Virus record (IMG/VR): IMGVR_UViG_3300048930_000050
Span: 1-34,730 of that record
Source of the DNA: a virus
DNA: 34,730 nucleotides
Direction: 5' to 3' (one strand)
Below, piece by piece: positions 6,029 to 34,730 of the stretch (positions are counted from its first letter, which is position 1; each line of letters begins with the position of its first letter). A program made the position numbers and the translations under genes. The notes below the pieces were generated by a model. It was not told where the DNA came from. It saw only the letters and a list, made by a program, of their open reading frames with translations, and ran no database searches.

Positions 6029-6241
6029 GTGAGCGACGCAGAGCATGGATCAGGAAGTGGGCACGTATCGCAGCAGAGCGCGCAGGACTTCGCCGCGCTC
6101 GCGAGCGCGCTGCTCGCTCAGGCCAAGGCGATCGACAGACTGGCGAGTAGCGTCGCTGCCCTGGCTGCTGCGGTGGCCGACACCGTCGACGACGAGCCAG
6201 AGCTCGGCAGCCGCACCTACCTGGACGGCCGGCCACTCTGA
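6029..6241 (+). CDS. Small helical hypothetical protein
   Basis: 70 residues from a GTG at 6029. The middle (about 17-52) is a heptad-like Ala/Leu helix (FAALASALLAQAKAIDRLAS) that could form a coiled coil, followed by an acidic tail. Its TGA overlaps the ATG of the HNH gene (TGATG). Short genes of this kind often sit just before the HNH-terminase block in HK97-like phages. The function is unknown, and the start is uncertain because no strong ribosome binding site is visible. Confidence 0.45.
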   Translation: MSDAEHGSGSGHVSQQSAQDFAALASALLAQAKAIDRLASSVAALAAAVADTVDDEPELGSRTYLDGRPL

Positions 6242-6564
6242 TGCCGAGCAGGCCGAAGACCCACAAGCCGATGCGCCGCCTGACCGAGCGGCACCAGGTG
6301 GCCAATCCGTCCGACGATTGGCGGAAGTGGTACACACACGCGAGATGGTCGAGGCTTAGGCGCGGATTCCTGGCGCGCAACGGGCTGTGCGTCTACTGCG
6401 AGCGCGAGGGCAGGATCAAGGTCGCAACCATCGTTGACCACGTGATCCCGCATCGTGGCGACCGCGCGCTGTTCTGGGATGAGTCGAACTGGCAGCCGCT
6501 CTGCAAGCGACACCACGACTCGACGAAGGCGATAGAGGAAGGCAAGAACAAGCGGGCCCGGTAG
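6241..6564 (+). CDS. HNH endonuclease next to the terminase genes
   Basis: 107 residues, the usual size for the packaging-associated HNH proteins of HK97-like phages. Motifs are seen in order: C50-x2-C53 (CVYC), the D66-H67 metal-binding pair in VDHVIPHRGD, N83 in the ESNWQPLC stretch, C88, and the final histidines H91-H92 in CKRHHDSTK. The four cysteine/histidine positions suggest a structural zinc as well as the catalytic metal. In HK97 and related phages, the HNH protein beside the terminase is needed for specific DNA cleavage during packaging; that role is likely here. A second, different HNH gene separates it from the small terminase. Confidence 0.85.
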   Translation: MPSRPKTHKPMRRLTERHQVANPSDDWRKWYTHARWSRLRRGFLARNGLCVYCEREGRIKVATIVDHVIPHRGDRALFWDESNWQPLCKRHHDSTKAIEEGKNKRAR

Positions 6565-6616: not shown

Positions 6617-7432
6617 ATGGCTGTATCGCAGTGTATTCGCGTTTGCGCCAGATGTGGCGTGGAATTCAGACGGACGGCCAAGGGGCAGTCTGTCCGGTAC
6701 TGCTCGGATGATTGTCGGCGCGAGTCGGCGAATGATCTGATGCGAAAGGCCGACAGGGCCAAGAACGGACGGGTCTCATGGGCCGAATATGTGGCCAAAG
6801 TAAGAATCCCGCAGCCTAACTGCAAAGGGTGTGGGCGCCAGTTCAGGCCATCTAAGCGGACACAGTCCAGCTACTGCACTAGGTCTTGCTATCAGCGCAC
6901 TCGCAACCTCATGAGTCGTGTGCGGGTGCTGCGAAAAGAGGTCGCCTCGATACGCAAGGGCTACGAGTTGCTGCTGAGCAGGATCGACAAGTTCGAGCGG
7001 CGTGATAATTCGTTCAGAGACCGCCCGTGTACGCAATGTGGTGCGCCATTCCGCCCGCCCAAAACGGGAGGCGGTCGCGCAAGAATCTGCTCTGAAGAAA
7101 GCAGAAAGGCCGCGCGATGGATTGCGTCAAGGCGCGGCAGGAAGAATGCGAAGGCTAAAAGGCGTGCGGTCGAGAGGGGGGCGCGCGCGGAACGAATCGA
7201 CGTGCTGAAGGTGTTCGATCGAGATAGGTGGCGCTGCCACATTTGTGGAATCAAGACGATGAAGTCGAAGCGCGGCACCTGTCACCCAAAGGCCCCTGAG
7301 CTAGACCACATCGTTACGCTGGCCGATGGCGGGTCGCACACCTGGGGCAACGTCGCCTGCGCATGCAGGTCATGCAACCAGGCCAAGGGCGCGCGGTCGT
7401 TCGGGCAGCTCGGGCTCGGGGTGGCCGCGTGA
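6617..7432 (+). CDS. HNH endonuclease with zinc-finger repeats
   Basis: 271 residues with a strong Shine-Dalgarno sequence (AGGAGG at 6606-6611). Three similar zinc-finger-like units precede the nuclease: C10-C13-C29-C33, C69-C72-C87-C91, and C138-C141-C158, where the fourth cysteine is missing (Glu/Ser instead). Two basic helical stretches lie between and after them. The C-terminal HNH domain has C207-C210, the D230-H231 pair in ELDHIVTLADGG, N245 and C250-C253, then NQAKG. This layout (DNA-binding fingers plus HNH) suits a free-standing homing-type endonuclease. It has its own ribosome binding site, is flanked by gaps of about 50 and 108 bases in an otherwise overlapping operon, and uses more AGA/AGG codons than neighbours, all consistent with an inserted selfish gene. 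A packaging role is the alternative. Confidence 0.75.
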   Translation: MAVSQCIRVCARCGVEFRRTAKGQSVRYCSDDCRRESANDLMRKADRAKNGRVSWAEYVAKVRIPQPNCKGCGRQFRPSKRTQSSYCTRSCYQRTRNLMSRVRVLRKEVASIRKGYELLLSRIDKFERRDNSFRDRPCTQCGAPFRPPKTGGGRARICSEESRKAARWIASRRGRKNAKAKRRAVERGARAERIDVLKVFDRDRWRCHICGIKTMKSKRGTCHPKAPELDHIVTLADGGSHTWGNVACACRSCNQAKGARSFGQLGLGVAA

Positions 7433-27764: not shown

Positions 27765-28238
27765 TCACGCTCCAATTTTCCGCTCAAGCCAATCAATCGC
27801 GTGCAGGTACATATCCCCCTGCTCTCTATCGCCTGTGTAGTTCTCGCCCCAATGCTTCCGCGCCTCCTGAATGCTGAAGTCCCGACACCCTGCCCGGATG
27901 CGCCACTCTGTCCCGAATAATGTTGCGTGGGCGAATGAGTACCCGCGCATGTCGCAGACAGGGAGCAAATAAAATCCAAAAGCTTCGCGCAGTTTGGCCT
28001 CGCGCAGGTCGGCCCGGCGCAGGTCGGCCCCACACAGGCTGGCCCGGCGCAGGTCGGCCCCGCTCAGATTGGCCCGGCGCAGGTTGGCCCCGCTCAGGTC
28101 GGCCCCGCGCAGGTCGGCCCCGCGCAGGTCGGCCCCGCTCAGGTAGGCCCGGCGCAGGTCGGCCCCGCTCAGGTCGGCCCATCGCGCAGTCCCGCCATTG
28201 CACATCAAAATGACGATCACTGAGTCAATTGGTGTCAT
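27765..28238 (-). CDS. Pentapeptide repeat protein with AGCR-EARKHW domain
   Basis: 157 residues. Residues about 21-87 are some thirteen pentapeptides of the A(D/N)Lxx type ([15 protein letters not shown]), which fold as a right-handed quadrilateral beta helix. Residues 96-157 form a separate domain with [15 protein letters not shown] and a terminal [10 protein letters not shown] helix. The same domain, at the same residue positions, ends the hexapeptide-repeat protein at 31462-31950. Some pentapeptide proteins (MfpA, Qnr) mimic DNA and bind gyrase, but this one is short and Arg-rich, so that role is not implied. The arrangement TGACATG at both ends shows a tightly packed operon. Confidence 0.8.
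27978..28178 (-). repeat. 15-bp period tandem repeat coding for pentapeptides
   Basis: The DNA repeats with a 15-base period; on the plus strand units read like GCGCAGGTCGGCCCC or GCTCAGGTCGGCCCC. Copies are nearly identical at the DNA level, suggesting recent expansion by slippage or recombination. It is fully inside the coding sequence. Confidence 0.85.
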
Positions 28239-28506: not shown

Positions 28507-28958
28507 GCCGCATCTCCGATTTCCAGAACCACGCCGTATTCCGCCGCCAGGCGCAGGAGCGTTTCGATAAGCGCCGAGTACGTCTCGCGGTCCCTCGCCC
28601 TGCCTTCGGCATCCTTGCTAGACCGTTCAGCCGGCACCGGCCAGGCGTACTGCTTGCCGCGCGTCCTTATTTCTCTTGTTCCGCGAGTCCCGAAAGCCTC
28701 GGCCAGCACAACGTTGTGCAGCAGCATTTCTGATTCCGCCGCGCTGTAGCCGAGCGCATCACCGAAGCGATGCAGAGCAGACCAGTAGGCGGCTCTCTGC
28801 GGCTCTGTATGCCGCGAGCGAAGCGGGGTAATATCAATGGATACCCCGAGCACACACTTGCCCCTGATCACTTCCAGTTCGGCCCTGCGCGATGGCATCC
28901 AGCGGATCAGCTGCGCGAAAACGTCGTCCAGATGCCGCGTCCCCAATTGGAACTTCAT
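28503..28958 (-). CDS. Possible NinB-like recombination protein
   Basis: 151 residues from the ATG at 28958 (ATGA with the exonuclease); the longer start seen in the same frame is inside the exonuclease gene and unlikely. The pattern RSRHTEPQRAAYWSALHRFG, then SAAESEMLLHNVVLAEAFG, and later AEGRARDRETYSALIETLLR followed by LAAEYGVVLE, recalls NinB/Orf-type phage recombination mediators. These share the R-T-x-x-Q-x-x-Y-W start, a short KSS-like segment and a last 'AAEyGi' helix. Its place in the ERF/YqaJ cluster supports a recombination role. The family assignment is tentative. Confidence 0.5.
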   Translation of the reverse strand: MKFQLGTRHLDDVFAQLIRWMPSRRAELEVIRGKCVLGVSIDITPLRSRHTEPQRAAYWSALHRFGDALGYSAAESEMLLHNVVLAEAFGTRGTREIRTRGKQYAWPVPAERSSKDAEGRARDRETYSALIETLLRLAAEYGVVLEIGDAA

Positions 28959-29572
28959 GCCGCTGCGCTCCTGATGATTTCGAGCAACCGATCCCGCTCC
29001 GCGCAAACCGCCTTGATTCCTCGAAGAAGCTCGGCAATGTACGACTCATCGCGCGTTACACGAACCGTTATGCCGGGCAGATCAGGATGGAAAAACGACA
29101 GGTCGCACCATTCGCGCTCGCAGATCAGCAGTTGACCGTATACCTGCGGCAAGTACCCTGGCGGGCATGTCTTGTTCTTCGCGTAGTAGGCTAGCGTTTG
29201 GACGTGGCCCTTTGCCATCTGGCACTTAATTTCGTGGAGCCCGTCGCTTCCGACCAGCCCATCCGGCGAGCATCCCGCGCCGTGGTTGACGATGAATCCG
29301 ACCGTTTCCACCTCGACGCCGCGCTCAAACTGGTAGGCGAATCGCGCCTGCGGCTCAATCTCGTGGCCGCGTTCTGTCGCCTCATTCCCGCCCCAGCGTT
29401 CCAGCGGCTTGCCGGCGAACATATCGGCAGCGAGTTCCGCCGCGTAGTCCGTCAACTGCGACGACGCCTTTCCTGTCCCGGTAACAATCCGCGAAAAGCT
29501 CGATGCGGTAGGGATGCCGACGCGCGCGGCATACCATTCGTCGGTGCCTTGTTCTACGTTGAAGATTTCCAT
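28955..29572 (-). CDS. YqaJ-family viral exonuclease
   Basis: 205 residues. The lambda Exo/YqaJ fold is clear: VEQGTDEWYAARVGIPTASS at the N-terminus, E72 in RGHEIEPQARFAY, and the catalytic core with D104 in CSPDGLVG followed by E114-x-K116 in LHEIKCQM. H123 and Q125 (HVQTLAYY) and YLPQVYGQLLICEREW complete the pattern. It digests one strand of double-stranded DNA ends to provide single strands for the ERF annealase two genes upstream. It overlaps neighbours on both sides. Confidence 0.92.
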   Translation of the reverse strand: MEIFNVEQGTDEWYAARVGIPTASSFSRIVTGTGKASSQLTDYAAELAADMFAGKPLERWGGNEATERGHEIEPQARFAYQFERGVEVETVGFIVNHGAGCSPDGLVGSDGLHEIKCQMAKGHVQTLAYYAKNKTCPPGYLPQVYGQLLICEREWCDLSFFHPDLPGITVRVTRDESYIAELLRGIKAVCAERDRLLEIIRSAAA

Positions 29573-30540
29573 TAGAACGCGATGCTCACTGCCGGGATGC
29601 GCTTTTGCGCGATAAGTTCGACAGCCAGTTTTGCCTGCGCGTCGTCCATTCCTCCGGCTACCAGAGCCTTGATTGCGGAAGTCATCACGGCTGCGGCATG
29701 GCGCTTGTTGGATTCGCGCCTTCTGGCGTCTTCGGCTTCGCGTTCGGCACGCTCCTTGGCTTCGCGCTCGGCGTTTTCCTTGGCCGCCTGTTCTGCTCGC
29801 TCTGCCCTCAGTTCGGCATCTGCCTTTGCGCGCTCTGCACGCTCGCGTTCAAGCAGCAAATCCTGCTCGCGGCGCTCGGCGGCTTCACGCTCCGCGATGG
29901 CGCGCTGTTCTGCGGCCTTCTTCTCGCGCTCTGCGGCCTCTGCCGCGATGCGCGCGTCACGCTCGGCCTGTTCGCGTTCTGCCTGTTCGCGGCGCAGGCG
30001 TGCAAGCTCTGCCTGCTCGGCTTCGTACTTCTCGCGCTTTTCGATTGCGTCAACAAGCGCGGCCCTGGCGGCATCTTTCGTGCGAGCCGCGCCAACCTCA
30101 AATTCCTCCCAGTGCGGCCCGATCGCGTAGGACTCGAGCGTTTCGAGGCGCGCGCGAAGATCTGCGGCGCTGATATCCTCGTTGCCAACTGCCGCAAGTT
30201 CGCCCATTTCCGCAAGACGCCGTTCGTGCGCCGCTTTCCTGGCCGTCTCGCGCTGCTCGATTTCTTCAAGCGGGCGCTGGTGAACGGCGATCATTTCCTC
30301 GATTTCGGAGATGATCGCTTTGGCTTCGGAATCAACGCGCCGCCCGTATTCAAGGCTGGCGGCCTTCTCGGCTGCGCGAGCCTTGTCTACTGCGGATTTC
30401 GTCTGGCGCAGTTTGTAGATGTGGCTGCGAGCCTCCTTGTTGCCGGCCGGCGATTCGTAGTCGAAAACAACCGCGCTGTTGTGCGACTTCAGGTCGGCCA
30501 ACTGCGCGCGAAATTCGTTGTATACCGCGATGCTTTTCAT
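29572..30540 (-). CDS. Long coiled-coil protein of the recombination operon
   Basis: 322 residues. The N-terminal part (about 1-60) has VYNEFRAQLADLKSHN and KEARSHIYKLRQTKSAVDKA, a pattern also seen in DUF1351-type proteins that sit beside phage annealases. Residues about 165-285 are a highly charged Ala/Glu/Arg coiled coil with many AER, EREA and ERAE units. A compact C-terminal segment (IKALVAGGMDDAQAKLAVELIAQKRIPAV) follows. Its fixed place between ERF and YqaJ suggests that it bridges or supports the annealase-exonuclease pair. That role is inferred. Confidence 0.7.
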   Translation of the reverse strand: MKSIAVYNEFRAQLADLKSHNSAVVFDYESPAGNKEARSHIYKLRQTKSAVDKARAAEKAASLEYGRRVDSEAKAIISEIEEMIAVHQRPLEEIEQRETARKAAHERRLAEMGELAAVGNEDISAADLRARLETLESYAIGPHWEEFEVGAARTKDAARAALVDAIEKREKYEAEQAELARLRREQAEREQAERDARIAAEAAEREKKAAEQRAIAEREAAERREQDLLLERERAERAKADAELRAERAEQAAKENAEREAKERAEREAEDARRRESNKRHAAAVMTSAIKALVAGGMDDAQAKLAVELIAQKRIPAVSIAF

Positions 30541-31271
30541 TTTCCTGCCCTATTTGCTGATGCTTTCTTGAACCTCGCGACCGCCTCTGCGAACTTCGCC
30601 GCCGGCAATTCCTCTACCGATCCGATCCGGTATGCCCCGAGAAACGATTTCGCAATGTCAGGCATTGCTTCCAGGTATTCTCGGATGGTCGCAGCCTGCT
30701 CGTCAGTGATCGTCGCCAGCGCCTTTGATACCGGGCCGTTGCCGTCGTTGTCGTCCTCGCCAATTGCGACGTTGAAGATCATCTTGAGCAGGTAGCGCAT
30801 CCCGTAGGACATGGCCGCGCCGGTCGCGTGGGTCTTGGTCATCACGTCGCCGCCCTTCGCGCCTTTGCCATCGGCCGGCATGTCTACGTGGTACTCGCGC
30901 GAGAAACCTCCGCGATGCGACACCCGGCAGATCACGCGCAACATGCCCTCGGCTGCGTCGCCAGTGTCGAACGACAGCGCAAAGCCGTGCGCCGTGTAGA
31001 CCGGACGCAGGATCGAATCTAGCTTGCCGTAGGTGGCATACCGGCTCCGCGTCTGCGGGTTCGTGGCGTCTGCGGAAATCCTGCCCATCTCGGACTGCGC
31101 GCCGGTCATCGAAGCGTTGAAGTCGGTTTCCGCCTGGCGCATCTGGATGCGCTCGTGCATTTCTAGCAGGCGCTCCATCTTCTCGATGTCAACCTCCGGG
31201 TTGATCGCAGCGCGCTCGATCATGCTTATCAGCGCCGTGCTGTTGTCCTGTGCTTTCACTATCTCGCTCAT
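30537..31271 (-). CDS. erf: ERF-family single-strand annealing protein
   Basis: 244 residues. ERF pattern: a helical N-terminus, ETDFNASMTGAQSEMGRISA, then ATYGKLDSILRPVYTAHGFALSF (the conserved Y-a-dL..v..vl.khGl segment). Later come GGFSREYHVDMPADGKGAKGG and the core TKTHATGAAMSYGMRYLLKM. Residues after 175 form the usual variable tail with a small helical domain (YLEAMPDIAKSFLGAYRIGS). It anneals complementary single strands made by the exonuclease, for recombination and genome circularisation. ATGA overlaps on both sides. Confidence 0.93.
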   Translation of the reverse strand: MSEIVKAQDNSTALISMIERAAINPEVDIEKMERLLEMHERIQMRQAETDFNASMTGAQSEMGRISADATNPQTRSRYATYGKLDSILRPVYTAHGFALSFDTGDAAEGMLRVICRVSHRGGFSREYHVDMPADGKGAKGGDVMTKTHATGAAMSYGMRYLLKMIFNVAIGEDDNDGNGPVSKALATITDEQAATIREYLEAMPDIAKSFLGAYRIGSVEELPAAKFAEAVARFKKASANRAGK

Positions 31272-31465
31272 TTCGACCCCCCGTACAAACCCTTGTAGAT
31301 TTCCTTGCCCTTGTCGTATCCGTGGTCCCAGCCGCGCGTATAGGCGTTGACCAGCATCATCTGGATGAACGGCACCAGATGCGGACTGATCGCGTCCTTT
31401 TCAGCCAGTGCCGCAATCTCCTGCTTGATGTCCTCGATCGGGCTGACGAACTCTTGCTCGCTCAT
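31268..31465 (-). CDS. Small hypothetical early protein
   Basis: 65 residues. An acidic helical N-terminus (EFVSPIEDIKQEIAALAEK) is followed by LVPFIQMMLVNAYTRGWDHGYDKGKEIYKG. The GWDHGYxxGKE type end is common in short early phage proteins of unknown role. It is coupled by ATGA on both sides, upstream of ERF. Confidence 0.55.
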   Translation of the reverse strand: MSEQEFVSPIEDIKQEIAALAEKDAISPHLVPFIQMMLVNAYTRGWDHGYDKGKEIYKGLYGGSK

Positions 31466-31950
31466 ACCGCGCCTCCGTCTCTCGCTTTGCTTATCGCCTC
31501 AAGCGCGTCGAGTATTGCCATCGTCTCGCGGCCAAGCTGCGTGCCTCCGCGAGTAGCCTCCCAATGCTTTCTCGCCTCGCCCATGGTGAAGTATCGGCAG
31601 CCTGCAATCACTCGCATCGGCCCGTCATCACACTGGACATAGATGAATGTATATCCATCGCTGCGGGTGATGCCGTACACCTGCGCGTTGCCGCCCACCC
31701 GCGCGTCGTCGCACACCCGCGCGTTGCCGCACACCTGCGCGTTGCCGTACACCTGCGCGTTGTCGCAAACCCACGCGTCGCCGCACACCTGCGCGTTGTC
31801 GCAAACCCACGCGTCGCCGTACACCCGCGCGCGATCCCCAACAAACGCCGACGCATCAACGCTTGCGGTATCTGCAACCCAGCCGCGACCGTTTTCATGG
31901 CGATGAGCGGGAACCGGGCCATTTCCGTCGTTAAAGTCAAACGTGCTCAT
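31462..31950 (-). CDS. Hexapeptide repeat protein with AGCR-EARKHW domain
   Basis: 162 residues. Residues about 30-92 are hexapeptides of the type A-x-V-x-x-(D/N) (DARVGG, NAQVYG, DAWVCD), as in left-handed beta helices or bactofilin-like folds; many turns carry Cys (WVCDNAQVCG), stacking as a ladder. Residues about 98-155 (FIYVQCDDGPMRVIAGCRYF, EARKHW, then MAILDALEAI) are a domain shared with the pentapeptide protein at 27765-28238. The function is unknown. It overlaps both neighbouring genes (ATGA). Confidence 0.75.
   Translation of the reverse strand: MSTFDFNDGNGPVPAHRHENGRGWVADTASVDASAFVGDRARVYGDAWVCDNAQVCGDAWVCDNAQVYGNAQVCGNARVCDDARVGGNAQVYGITRSDGYTFIYVQCDDGPMRVIAGCRYFTMGEARKHWEATRGGTQLGRETMAILDALEAISKARDGGAV
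31675..31863 (-). repeat. 18/36-bp tandem repeat coding for hexapeptides
   Basis: The hexapeptide-coding DNA has an 18-base period. Within it a 36-bp unit is duplicated at 31754-31789 and 31790-31825 with a single C/T difference, showing recent duplication. It is all inside the coding frame. Confidence 0.8.
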
Positions 31951-32621: not shown

Positions 32622-33410
32622 ATGAAGCACGTTCGCCACCACCTATCCGCGATCTTCGGCGACATGGAAGAGCCGGCGCTTATCGCGTTGGCCGAAGACA
32701 TCAAGGCGAAGGGCATCCTAGATCCCGTCGTCATGTACGAGGGCCAAGTGCTCGACGGCTGGCACCGCTGCAAGGCTGGCCAGATCGCGGGCGTTGAGAT
32801 CCCCTACACCGAATACCAAGGCGACGACCCGGGTGGGTTCGTCATCTCGAAGAACCTTCACCGCCGGCAGCGTCCGCTAACGGCGACCCAGCGCGCCGCG
32901 TTGGTTCTTCAGATCCATGAATGGCGGCCTGCTGGCCGACCCGAAAAAACCTCCGTACCAGTACGGACATTTTCTAACCGAGAACTCGCCGCAGAGGCCG
33001 AGGTTTCGGAAAAGACGATCGAGCAAGCCAAGGTCGCGCATCGCGCCGGGTTGAGCGATCAGATGGCGCGCGGCGAGCTTTCCGCAAAGGCCGCTGCCGA
33101 GAAGGCGCGAGAGGCGAAGGACGAACCGCCGAAGCCGAAGCCGCTGACAGAATCCGAAAAGCTCAAGGCGCGCATCGCGGAGCTTGAAGAGAAGGTCGCC
33201 GAGCAGCGGGAGATCATTGACGACCTGACAGACGGACTGGAAAGCCAGGAAGACGCGAAGCGTGACGAGGAATCGCAGCAGGTCAAGTTCGCGCAACTTC
33301 GCGAGCAGATCAGGGCGCTGAACTCGCAGGTACGCGAGTGGCAGAACGTGGCGAATCAGTGGAAGCGCGAATGTCTCGCCCTGCGTCGCAGGGTCGGAGA
33401 GGCAGCGTGA
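32622..33410 (+). CDS. ParB/Srx-like DNA-binding protein
   Basis: 262 residues from the ATG at 32622 (TTGAGG upstream); an ATG at 32577 is inside the terminator and unlikely. The ParB-N/sulfiredoxin-like core is KGILDPVVMYEGQVLDGWHR with YTEYQGDDPGGFVISKNLHR. A helical HTH region follows, with RELAAEAEVSEKTIEQAKVA (about 130-150). Residues about 175-260 are a charged coiled coil (KLKARIAELEEKVAEQREII). Phage proteins of this type act in regulation or replication rather than plasmid partition. It overlaps the helicase GTG by 4 bases. Confidence 0.75.
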   Translation: MKHVRHHLSAIFGDMEEPALIALAEDIKAKGILDPVVMYEGQVLDGWHRCKAGQIAGVEIPYTEYQGDDPGGFVISKNLHRRQRPLTATQRAALVLQIHEWRPAGRPEKTSVPVRTFSNRELAAEAEVSEKTIEQAKVAHRAGLSDQMARGELSAKAAAEKAREAKDEPPKPKPLTESEKLKARIAELEEKVAEQREIIDDLTDGLESQEDAKRDEESQQVKFAQLREQIRALNSQVREWQNVANQWKRECLALRRRVGEAA

Positions 33411-34730
33411 CTATCAACCTGCGCGAGTACCAGCAGCAAAGCGTCCAGGCGCTGCGCGACGGTATTCGCTCGGGGCATCGCGCGCAAATCCTGTGCAGCC
33501 CGACCGGATCTGGCAAGACGGTCATCGGCGCGTATCTGCTGCAAGAAGTGCAGGCGAAGGGAACGCGCGCCGCATTCGTGGTGGATCGCGTGTCCCTATG
33601 CGATCAGACCAGTCGAACCCTGTGGGACTACGGCATTCGTCACGGCGTCGCGCAAGGCTCCAACACCTTCGGGCGCGACGAACCGATCCAGGTATGCAGC
33701 GCGCAGACCATCGAGAAGCGCGGGTTCCTGCCGAGCATGGATCTGCTGATTGTTGATGAGTGCTTCCCTGGACACACATTGATTTCGACGCCGCTGGGCG
33801 AGCGTCGGATAGATTCACTTGGCGCCGGCGATCTCGTGCATAGCGCGGACGGCCCGGCGTTCATCGATTCCGTTTATTGCGCGCGCGCGCGCACCCTGGT
33901 CAGAGTGAGGCTTTCAGATGGGCGAACAATCGACTGCACGCCAGACCACCCGATCTTCACTTCAAGGGGATGGGTCGCCGCGGGTTCCCTGGGCCGGGGT
34001 GAGGTGCTATTCGACCGTGAGGCCGTGCGAACGCTGCGGCGCGGAGATGAGGCCATACATGTTCCGCTCGGGCACGCCGCAGGAGTACCCGGAGTCAGAA
34101 ACCCTGTTCATCAAGCGTCGCTTCTGCGGGAAATCCTGCGCGAAGAAAGCCGAGAACCCGACGAGGTTGCGTGCCACGCGAGAGAAGATTTCTTCGCGGA
34201 TGAGGGAGATCGGTCATCGGCCATCGGTGCGTGGCGGCAACGGGAGTGGCCCGACGGAGCCGCAGAGGTTGATGGCCGAAACGCTAGGCTCGCCGTGGGA
34301 AATGGAGTTCATCTTGCGGACTGGCAAGCGCCACGCAGATGGCTACCCGCATCACTACAAACTCGACCTGGCTCACGAGGCGCTGGCAATCTGCATCGAG
34401 ATCGATGGCGGGAGCCACTGCACGATCGAGCGCCAGCAGCAGGACGCGAAGAAGGACGAGTTGCTGCGTTCCCGCGGGTGGAGAGTGTTGAGAATATCGA
34501 ACTCGGAAGCGGTGCGTTTGTGTACAACCTCCGAGTCGATCGACACCCGTCGTATTTCGCAAATGGCGTCCTAGTCCACAACTGCCATACCCAGCGGCAG
34601 TTAATCACCGACTTCATCACCGGATTCCGAAAGCCTGTCATTGGGCTGACCGCAACGCCATTCAGCGCCGGCCTTGGAAAGACCTACAGCAACGTGGTCA
34701 ACGTCACGACCACGAACAAGCTAATCGCCG
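33407..34730 (+). CDS. SF2 DEAD/DEAH-type helicase, intein-interrupted, cut by window end
   Basis: Starts at GTG 33407 overlapping the ParB stop (GTGA) and stays open to the end of the window. Before the intein (118 residues): LREYQQQSVQALRDGIRSG (Q-motif-like), Walker A SPTGSGKT (31-38), RAAFVVDRVSLCDQT (motif Ia) and LLIVDE (113-118). After the intein: CHTQRQLITDFITGF, completing motif II as VDECH, then PVIGLTATPFSAGLGKTYSN, which carries motif III (TAT). The C-terminal helicase half lies outside. This is a phage replication or recombination helicase of the SF2 superfamily. The intein splits motif II precisely, so no helicase activity is expected without protein splicing. Confidence 0.85.
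   Translation, partial: MTINLREYQQQSVQALRDGIRSGHRAQILCSPTGSGKTVIGAYLLQEVQAKGTRAAFVVDRVSLCDQTSRTLWDYGIRHGVAQGSNTFGRDEPIQVCSAQTIEKRGFLPSMDLLIVDECFPGHTLISTPLGERRIDSLGAGDLVHSADGPAFIDSVYCARARTLVRVRLSDGRTIDCTPDHPIFTSRGWVAAGSLGRGEVLFDREAVRTLRRGDEAIHVPLGHAAGVPGVRNPVHQASLLREILREESREPDEVACHAREDFFADEGDRSSAIGAWRQREWPDGAAEVDGRNARLAVGNGVHLADWQAPRRWLPASLQTRPGSRGAGNLHRDRWREPLHDRAPAAGREEGRVAAFPRVESVENIELGSGAFVYNLRVDRHPSYFANGVLVHNCHTQRQLITDFITGFRKPVIGLTATPFSAGLGKTYSNVVNVTTTNKLIA
34001..34006 (+). promoter_or_regulatory. Shine-Dalgarno sequence for the nested endonuclease
   Basis: GAGGTG lies 10 bases before GTG 34017. It is formed by intein block B codons (for G80, E81 and V82), so the ribosome binding site of the inner gene is written inside the outer gene. 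Confidence 0.5.
34017..34574 (+). CDS. Vsr/DUF559-like homing endonuclease nested out of frame in the intein
   Basis: 185 residues from GTG 34017; the frame is open back to an ATG at 33918, but that part overlaps intein block B and looks like shadow. A zinc-finger-like pair opens the protein: C4-x2-C7 (PCERCGAEM) and C37-x3-C41 (RRFCGKSCAKK). A basic helix follows (about 50-66). The nuclease domain has SPWEMEFILRTGKRHADGYP, then YKLDLAH with D117 and AICIEIDGGSHC with E128, D130 and H134. QQDAKKDELLRSRGWRVLRI, ending ISNSE, completes the DUF559/Vsr (PD-(D/E)XK-like) pattern. It is in the +1 frame relative to the intein and ends at TAG 34572-34574, inside the intein. It probably cuts intein-free helicase genes and drives intein homing. 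Product and start are predicted from sequence only. Confidence 0.8.
   Translation: MRPCERCGAEMRPYMFRSGTPQEYPESETLFIKRRFCGKSCAKKAENPTRLRATREKISSRMREIGHRPSVRGGNGSGPTEPQRLMAETLGSPWEMEFILRTGKRHADGYPHHYKLDLAHEALAICIEIDGGSHCTIERQQQDAKKDELLRSRGWRVLRISNSEAVRLCTTSESIDTRRISQMAS

Follow-up and report, generated by a model that had tools for sequence, protein, structure and literature searches.

Most described inteins carry their endonuclease in frame with the splicing domain. Dassa and colleagues are said to have reported, in 2009, fractured genes in which split inteins have a Vsr-like endonuclease between their halves; the Vsr-fold endonuclease I-Bth0305I is a mobile-intron enzyme. An out-of-frame HNH insertion, ShiLan, has been described in mycobacteriophage methylases, with no splicing domain and no ribosome binding site (Arsenault, Gosselin, Gogarten 2025, PMC11855218). 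Here we analyse IMGVR_UViG_3300048930_000050, an entire IMG/VR phage record of 34,730 bases (hereafter the window), whose end cuts a helicase gene interrupted by an intein; inside this intein lies a nuclease gene in the +1 frame. A mobile intein at helicase motif II, holding a +1 nested and internally started homing nuclease, is the best explanation of the locus, and we consider it very probable. The parts of the locus are as follows.

33407-33760, plus strand: N-extein of a superfamily 2 DEAD/ResIII-type phage helicase, ending in DE of motif II (Pfam, PHROG_16)
33761-34582, plus strand: intein of 274 amino acids (aa) with class-1 signature (Pfam/TIGR profiles, alignment A2, AlphaFold/Foldseek)
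33906-33910, plus strand: Shine-Dalgarno (SD)-like TGAGG, duplex energy -8.2 kcal/mol; its TGA is the last +1-frame stop ahead of the nuclease open reading frame (ORF)
33918-34574, plus strand: putative nested nuclease gene, +1 frame, 218 aa, ATG to TAG, its stop 8 nucleotides (nt) short of the intein end (ORF reading, subfamily comparison)
33938-33949, plus strand: intein block B core TPDH (Thr60 to His63), Thr and His invariant in A2
34017-34019, plus strand: GTG, possible alternative nuclease start (185-aa product), its own SD at -6.9 kcal/mol
34026-34139, plus strand: four-cysteine zinc finger, nuclease C37, C40, C70 and C74 (in alignment A9, C37, C70 and C74 invariant, C40 at least 90%)
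34248-34571, plus strand: predicted Vsr-fold catalytic domain with conserved D150, E161, D163, H167 and D176 (Pfam DUF559, VIA-align, A9 columns)
34520-34582, plus strand: intein blocks F and G (VYNLRVDRHPSYFANGVLVHN), overlapping the nuclease C-terminus (A2; for the family's last 36 intein codons, the intein-frame ratio of nonsynonymous to synonymous substitution rates, dN/dS, is 0.27)
34583-34730, plus strand: C-extein of the helicase (CHTQRQ...), cut at the contig end (frame reading)

The helicase/intein frame (frame 0) is open from a candidate start, GTG 33407, through 34730 with no stop, and the intein occupies 274 codons of it, from C1 to H273 N274 followed by Cys+1, with the insertion point between DE and CH of motif II. 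Frame 0 has curated matches to Pfam Intein_splicing (PF14890, E 2e-9) and, above cut-off, to TIGR01445 and TIGR01443; on the helicase side it matches Pfam ResIII (3e-15) and DEAD (5e-6) and PHROG_16 helicase (7e-26). Frame reading and profiles thus bear out the original prediction, made from the letters of the window alone, of a frame open to the window end with a complete intein in it. The class-1 residues Cys1, T60..H63 (TxxH), His273, Asn274 and Cys+1 are all present in the window and invariant in A2. AlphaFold gave a confident Hint fold at both ends of the intein frame and a disordered middle (residues ~100-236); the best structural match by Foldseek was to the gp41-1 intein 6qaz (E 2e-7, template modelling score 0.87 by target), with matches to DnaB inteins as well. 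An Rfam scan of the window returned zero RNA families, hence no known intron signal.

Across the same DNA the +1 frame matches a curated family independently of frame 0: Pfam DUF559 (PF04480), with E 3e-8, above the gathering score. As the original prediction had it, this frame stops within the last codons of the intein, the TAG ending at 34574. With 36 relatives AlphaFold modelled the zinc finger and the nuclease domain confidently (mean predicted local distance difference test score 80), residues 1-28 having low confidence; the five putative catalytic residues were invariant across the 36 sequences of A9. In VIA-align, residues 111-218 resembled 3hrl (Z 9.6), I-Bth0305I (3r3p, Z 9.1) and Vsr (1cw0, Z 8.6), whereas Foldseek found nothing below E 0.001, the Vsr-fold E-values being just 0.05-0.4. 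A sequence search of PDB with the single nuclease as query gave no match; the A1 nuclease profile compared with PDB sequences by hmmsearch matched 3hrl with E 9e-8 and I-Bth0305I with E of merely 0.49. On sequence profile and modelled fold taken together, the nuclease is a zinc-finger/DUF559 enzyme of predicted Vsr fold.

Profile scans seeded with the nuclease covered IMG/VR and GTDB genomes, duplicates being removed before counting. They yielded 146 distinct loci with the nuclease in +1 and the intein ORF uninterrupted; the remaining loci comprised six with an interrupted intein frame, four with no detected intein and one cut by a contig end, and in none of the loci from these scans was the nuclease in the intein frame. 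A profile scan with nuclease alignment A5 gave 10 loci, mostly nested. The relatives came through alignments: an IMG/VR search with the window nuclease as a single protein found no match. Named phages identified by tblastn were Vibrio CP-T1, 104E43.1, 159E43-1b, K391 and the 10N.286.54 group, Corynebacterium phi673 and Pseudomonas MR14. All their copies are +1, and the records show a single long gene, for a helicase or a hypothetical protein, in which the nuclease is left unannotated; the nested loci include complete isolate genomes (Vibrio CP-T1, Corynebacterium phi673 and Pseudomonas MR14). Many phage helicase and terminase records would hide an unannotated nuclease gene in this way. Among the loci inspected, nearly all have the site DE/C...HN/C, and the nuclease stop sits 8-50 nt ahead of the intein end. 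One helicase (L002, 1855-5229) has two inteins: that at motif II holds an off-frame DUF559 nuclease, while the P-loop intein looks, by sequence, like the in-frame LAGLIDADG type. Two candidates were set aside, L259, which looks like an unrelated DUF559 protein, and L345, where the nested call came from a short partial match.

Selection was computed in both frames, as the original prediction had proposed, from pairwise substitution classes in 34 pairs, not all independent, by a simplified OLGenie-style count. In the core of the overlap dN/dS was 0.26 (0.24-0.28) for the nuclease and 0.92 (0.83-1.01) for the intein frame; over the last 36 intein codons it was 0.27 (0.19-0.38) for the intein and 0.41 (0.29-0.57) for the nuclease. 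In the overlap, then, the nuclease frame is under purifying selection and the intein frame is free in sequence, becoming constrained again at blocks F/G. A stop in the intein frame of the overlap needs a nuclease codon ending in T before a codon starting with AA, AG or GA. In the nested loci T precedes such stop-making codons in 0 of 5,542 cases, compared with 31% elsewhere; at that position T reaches 40% in fractured and 36% in free-standing relatives. The intein frame of the overlap had no stops, against ~1,400 expected from extein codon usage, and the third frame had 2,016. The element offers a clean example from nature of two overlapping genes whose constraint is partitioned and can be measured, selection on one frame being reduced to the avoidance of stops.

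The original prediction had placed the nuclease at 34017-34574, a protein of 185 aa with a GTG start. The DUF559 nuclease in +1 stands; its start most likely lies upstream, at ATG 33918, judging from conservation: this ATG (+157 from the intein start) is at the identical position in 11/11 subfamily members, the window included, whereas a GTG corresponding to 34017 occurs in only 2/11. A shorter product is possible because of the low AlphaFold confidence for residues 1-28. Most close relatives have an RAGG-type motif at the position of TGAGG. A start codon was present ahead of the zinc finger in 144 of the 146 nested loci (121 of the chosen starts were ATG), and the median anti-SD energy at chosen starts was -6.6 kcal/mol, compared with -2.1 for same-frame ATG/GTG codons in exteins; -4 kcal/mol or lower was reached by 79% of the chosen starts and 19% of the controls (36% of the controls if given an equal number of choices). 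A scan for a built-in SD in the block-B tail (GAGGTN) found 21 GAG and 5 GAA among 26 inteins fitting the pattern, few loci but suggestive of an SD built into this part of the intein sequence.

Since the chosen starts have strong SD signals compared with controls, internal initiation is the preferred route to the nuclease. Programmed +1 frameshifting out of the helicase-intein frame would instead produce a fusion of extein, intein N-part and nuclease; the constant register, as well as the +1 frame being open around the start of the overlap, would suit it. We consider frameshifting unlikely, though, given that the last +1-frame stop is closely followed by start codons whose SD signals are far stronger than in controls, and that the ATG is fixed throughout the subfamily; furthermore, a nuclease made by fusion would carry a truncated helicase with it.

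Precise intein-less alleles, together with precise insertion, as expected of a homing endonuclease, were found for four pairs of family members: phi673/phi674, CP-T1/vB_VchM-138, 104E43.1/142E35-1 and 1.194.O/234P10. The helicases of phi673 (with the element) and phi674 (without it) are identical at 377/378 residues before the site and 1211/1227 after it. The differences between them are concentrated within 60 nt downstream of the site, a pattern that co-conversion would leave; immediately after the site the occupied allele has Cys and the empty one Val. In the CP-T1/vB_VchM-138 and 104E43.1/142E35-1 pairs the empty allele has Ala where the occupied one has Cys, while in 1.194.O/234P10 the empty allele already has Cys; a change of V or A to C after the site is thus seen in three of the four pairs. 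A role of the nested nuclease other than homing, e.g. in DNA repair or superinfection exclusion, is conceivable since DUF559/Vsr-like nucleases are functionally varied. It is quite unlikely for a gene nested in a mobile element that has precise empty alleles in near-identical phages, and whose family also occurs free-standing beside uninterrupted target helicases.

Alternatively, a real nuclease could sit in an intein that has lost splicing and persists in the helicase as a tolerated loop, which is what has been proposed for ShiLan in the methylases; a long linker predicted to be disordered would fit. Retention of the catalytic Cys1, TxxH, His-Asn and Cys+1, purifying selection on blocks F/G (0.27) and the lack of Cys+1 in most empty alleles make this very unlikely, the more so as an insert left unspliced at this site, within helicase motif II, would be expected to abolish ATPase activity. 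Finally, a decayed in-frame endonuclease or a sequencing or assembly frameshift (two indels) in the window copy, for which one could invoke the in-frame position usual among described inteins, has a negligible chance: both frames are under selection, and the relatives refute it, as the +1 register fixed over 146 distinct loci, complete isolate genomes included, rules out two chance indels in this copy. The nuclease is in frame in no relative; both cases that the original prediction named as refuting it were looked for and not seen.

Several points weigh against a mobile intein with a nested, internally started homing nuclease. Sequence is the basis for predicting splicing, a nuclease protein and the site that it cuts. 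About 21% of the nested loci are without a strong SD. Correlation among the distance matrices of intein, nuclease and helicase is only moderate, with no clear sign of intein and nuclease travelling apart from the helicase. Because the nested loci were chosen for an open ORF, their lack of stops is in part a matter of definition; the signal lies in the intein frame being broken in just 6/152 intein-bearing loci, the five of these that were listed having 15-35 stops.

Under the explanation that we prefer, the homing endonuclease gene would be nested in +1, rather than in frame, within a mobile intein at helicase motif II (DE/CH). The helicase-intein precursor would be translated straight through, and the Hint domain (blocks A/B plus F/G) would splice out 274 residues, the middle overlapping the nuclease being read as a linker without order. 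Ribosomes would also start inside the intein (ATG 33918, TGAGG) and make a free zinc-finger/Vsr-fold nuclease, whose most likely target for cleavage is the motif II codons of helicase alleles lacking the intein; recombination would then copy intein and nuclease jointly. Selection would retain the nuclease sequence and blocks A, B, F and G, and between the blocks would remove only intein-frame stops. We infer splicing, internal initiation, cleavage and homing. The idea of the original prediction, a unit of nested overlapping genes with the nuclease made separately, gains support from the register of the 146 loci, the opposite selection signatures, the SD-preceded starts and the empty alleles. 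Such an element would show a way for a mobile intein to bring along an unfused nuclease, the same DNA coding for a splicing protein and an independent enzyme, and the phi673/phi674 pair makes homing directly testable.

Relatives of the nuclease are also found in other settings. In L250 (3968-4579) and L200 (2959-3600) they are free-standing, directly upstream of, and slightly overlapping, an intein-less helicase with intact motif II. In L171, L172, L174, L176, L177 and L178 the intein is divided between an N and a C ORF on either side of the nuclease, and the +1 register is kept; these genomes are AT-rich, the site is slightly shifted and the intein frame has many stops, an apparent fractured-gene arrangement as read from sequence. 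The series suggests an order from free-standing to nested, with the fractured form a sister or derived state, the direction being inferred.

A separate scan seeded with the intein, its loci partly shared with those above, gave 51 inteins with DUF559 in +1 and 13 without DUF559. Ten of the latter 13 hold long ORFs, all in +2: LAGLIDADG_2 matches in helicase inteins (FoX3, L268, L269 and L275) and HNH_3 matches in terminase-like genes (L270, L277, L291, L293, L316 and L336). In these ten cases the intein frame has 0 stops, with 2-11 expected (joint log10 P ~ -29). In Xanthomonas phage FoX3 (L265, 2917-3714), an independent instance of off-frame nesting, the LAGLIDADG_2 endonuclease matches with E 1e-21; in Acinetobacter phage Highwayman (L347, 2468-3145) and Tetrasphaera phage TJE1 (L348, 2228-3145) a +2 HNH is hidden in an intein of the terminase large subunit, and in phage BP10 (L349, 2486-3127) a related HNH gene is free-standing just before terminase genes whose large subunit has uninterrupted length. 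Searches for other off-frame inteins, which the original prediction called for, have returned 146 DUF559 loci with the nuclease as seed and LAGLIDADG/HNH cases in +2 with the intein as seed. The occurrence of LAGLIDADG and HNH nucleases in +2 of other inteins implies that the off-frame design arose repeatedly. We lean, with moderate confidence, to the view that off-frame nesting is a general, repeatedly evolved design of phage inteins (DUF559/Vsr in +1; LAGLIDADG and HNH in +2; helicases and terminases) missed through annotation as one long gene, and that free-standing, nested and fractured forms make one series, in which an intein is nested and cis-splicing or split and trans-splicing depending on GC content and stop codons. 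The element plausibly links free-standing endonucleases with inteins and with fractured genes or split inteins, from which useful split inteins come.

In Pseudoalteromonas phage pYD6-A (L264, 2332-3216) a distant relative of the nuclease, probably intron-encoded, sits in a ribonucleotide reductase gene that is interrupted and whose annotation joins two pieces. Elsewhere in the window, an HNH ORF of 107 aa (6241-6561) adjoins a longer one of 271 aa with several CxxC pairs (6617-7429), both upstream of the terminase genes; the longer may be another homing endonuclease. On the minus strand, 28955-31271 holds the phage's own recombination genes, for a YqaJ-type exonuclease and an ERF-type annealing protein, which could serve homing; also on the minus strand are a pentapeptide-repeat protein (27765-28238) and a YdcK-like beta-solenoid/hexapeptide protein (31462-31950), role unassigned.

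The original prediction knew of no description of such an arrangement. A literature search of limited reach, which leaves priority unsettled, likewise found no published account of an off-frame nuclease inside a continuous intein, although an out-of-frame HNH in a non-intein insertion has been published (PMC11855218); a 2025 preprint by Gosselin et al. on the 'non-canonical architecture' of actinobacteriophage inteins may overlap this arrangement. The window has the same Hint blocks as bifunctional inteins with in-frame LAGLIDADG or HNH endonucleases, and at the same site of the helicase L279 seems, by eye, to carry a LAGLIDADG endonuclease in frame. The window intein falls outside this class: its nuclease is off-frame in +1, a separate predicted protein with its own start and a different fold, and frame 0 there is a predicted disordered linker. 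With I-Bth0305I and other Vsr-fold homing endonucleases the nuclease shares the fold of the catalytic domain and an N-terminal DNA-binding part, while sequence similarity to I-Bth0305I is very weak.

ShiLan is alike in being a phage insertion open in the host frame, with a homing-type nuclease in another frame and a patchy distribution (PMC11855218). The window shares the out-of-frame nuclease of that class but not its lack of a self-splicing domain: it has a complete intein around the nuclease, a strong SD, a nuclease of the DUF559/Vsr family, and +1 rather than the third frame. Fractured genes likewise tie a Vsr-like nuclease to inteins, and the six split loci above look like this type; the window and 145 other loci, in contrast, have an unsplit intein and one continuous ORF across the nuclease gene, frame 0 of the window being open throughout 33407-34730. 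Judging by the descriptions of ShiLan and of fractured genes, what is new relative to both is the continuous intein with an off-frame nuclease.
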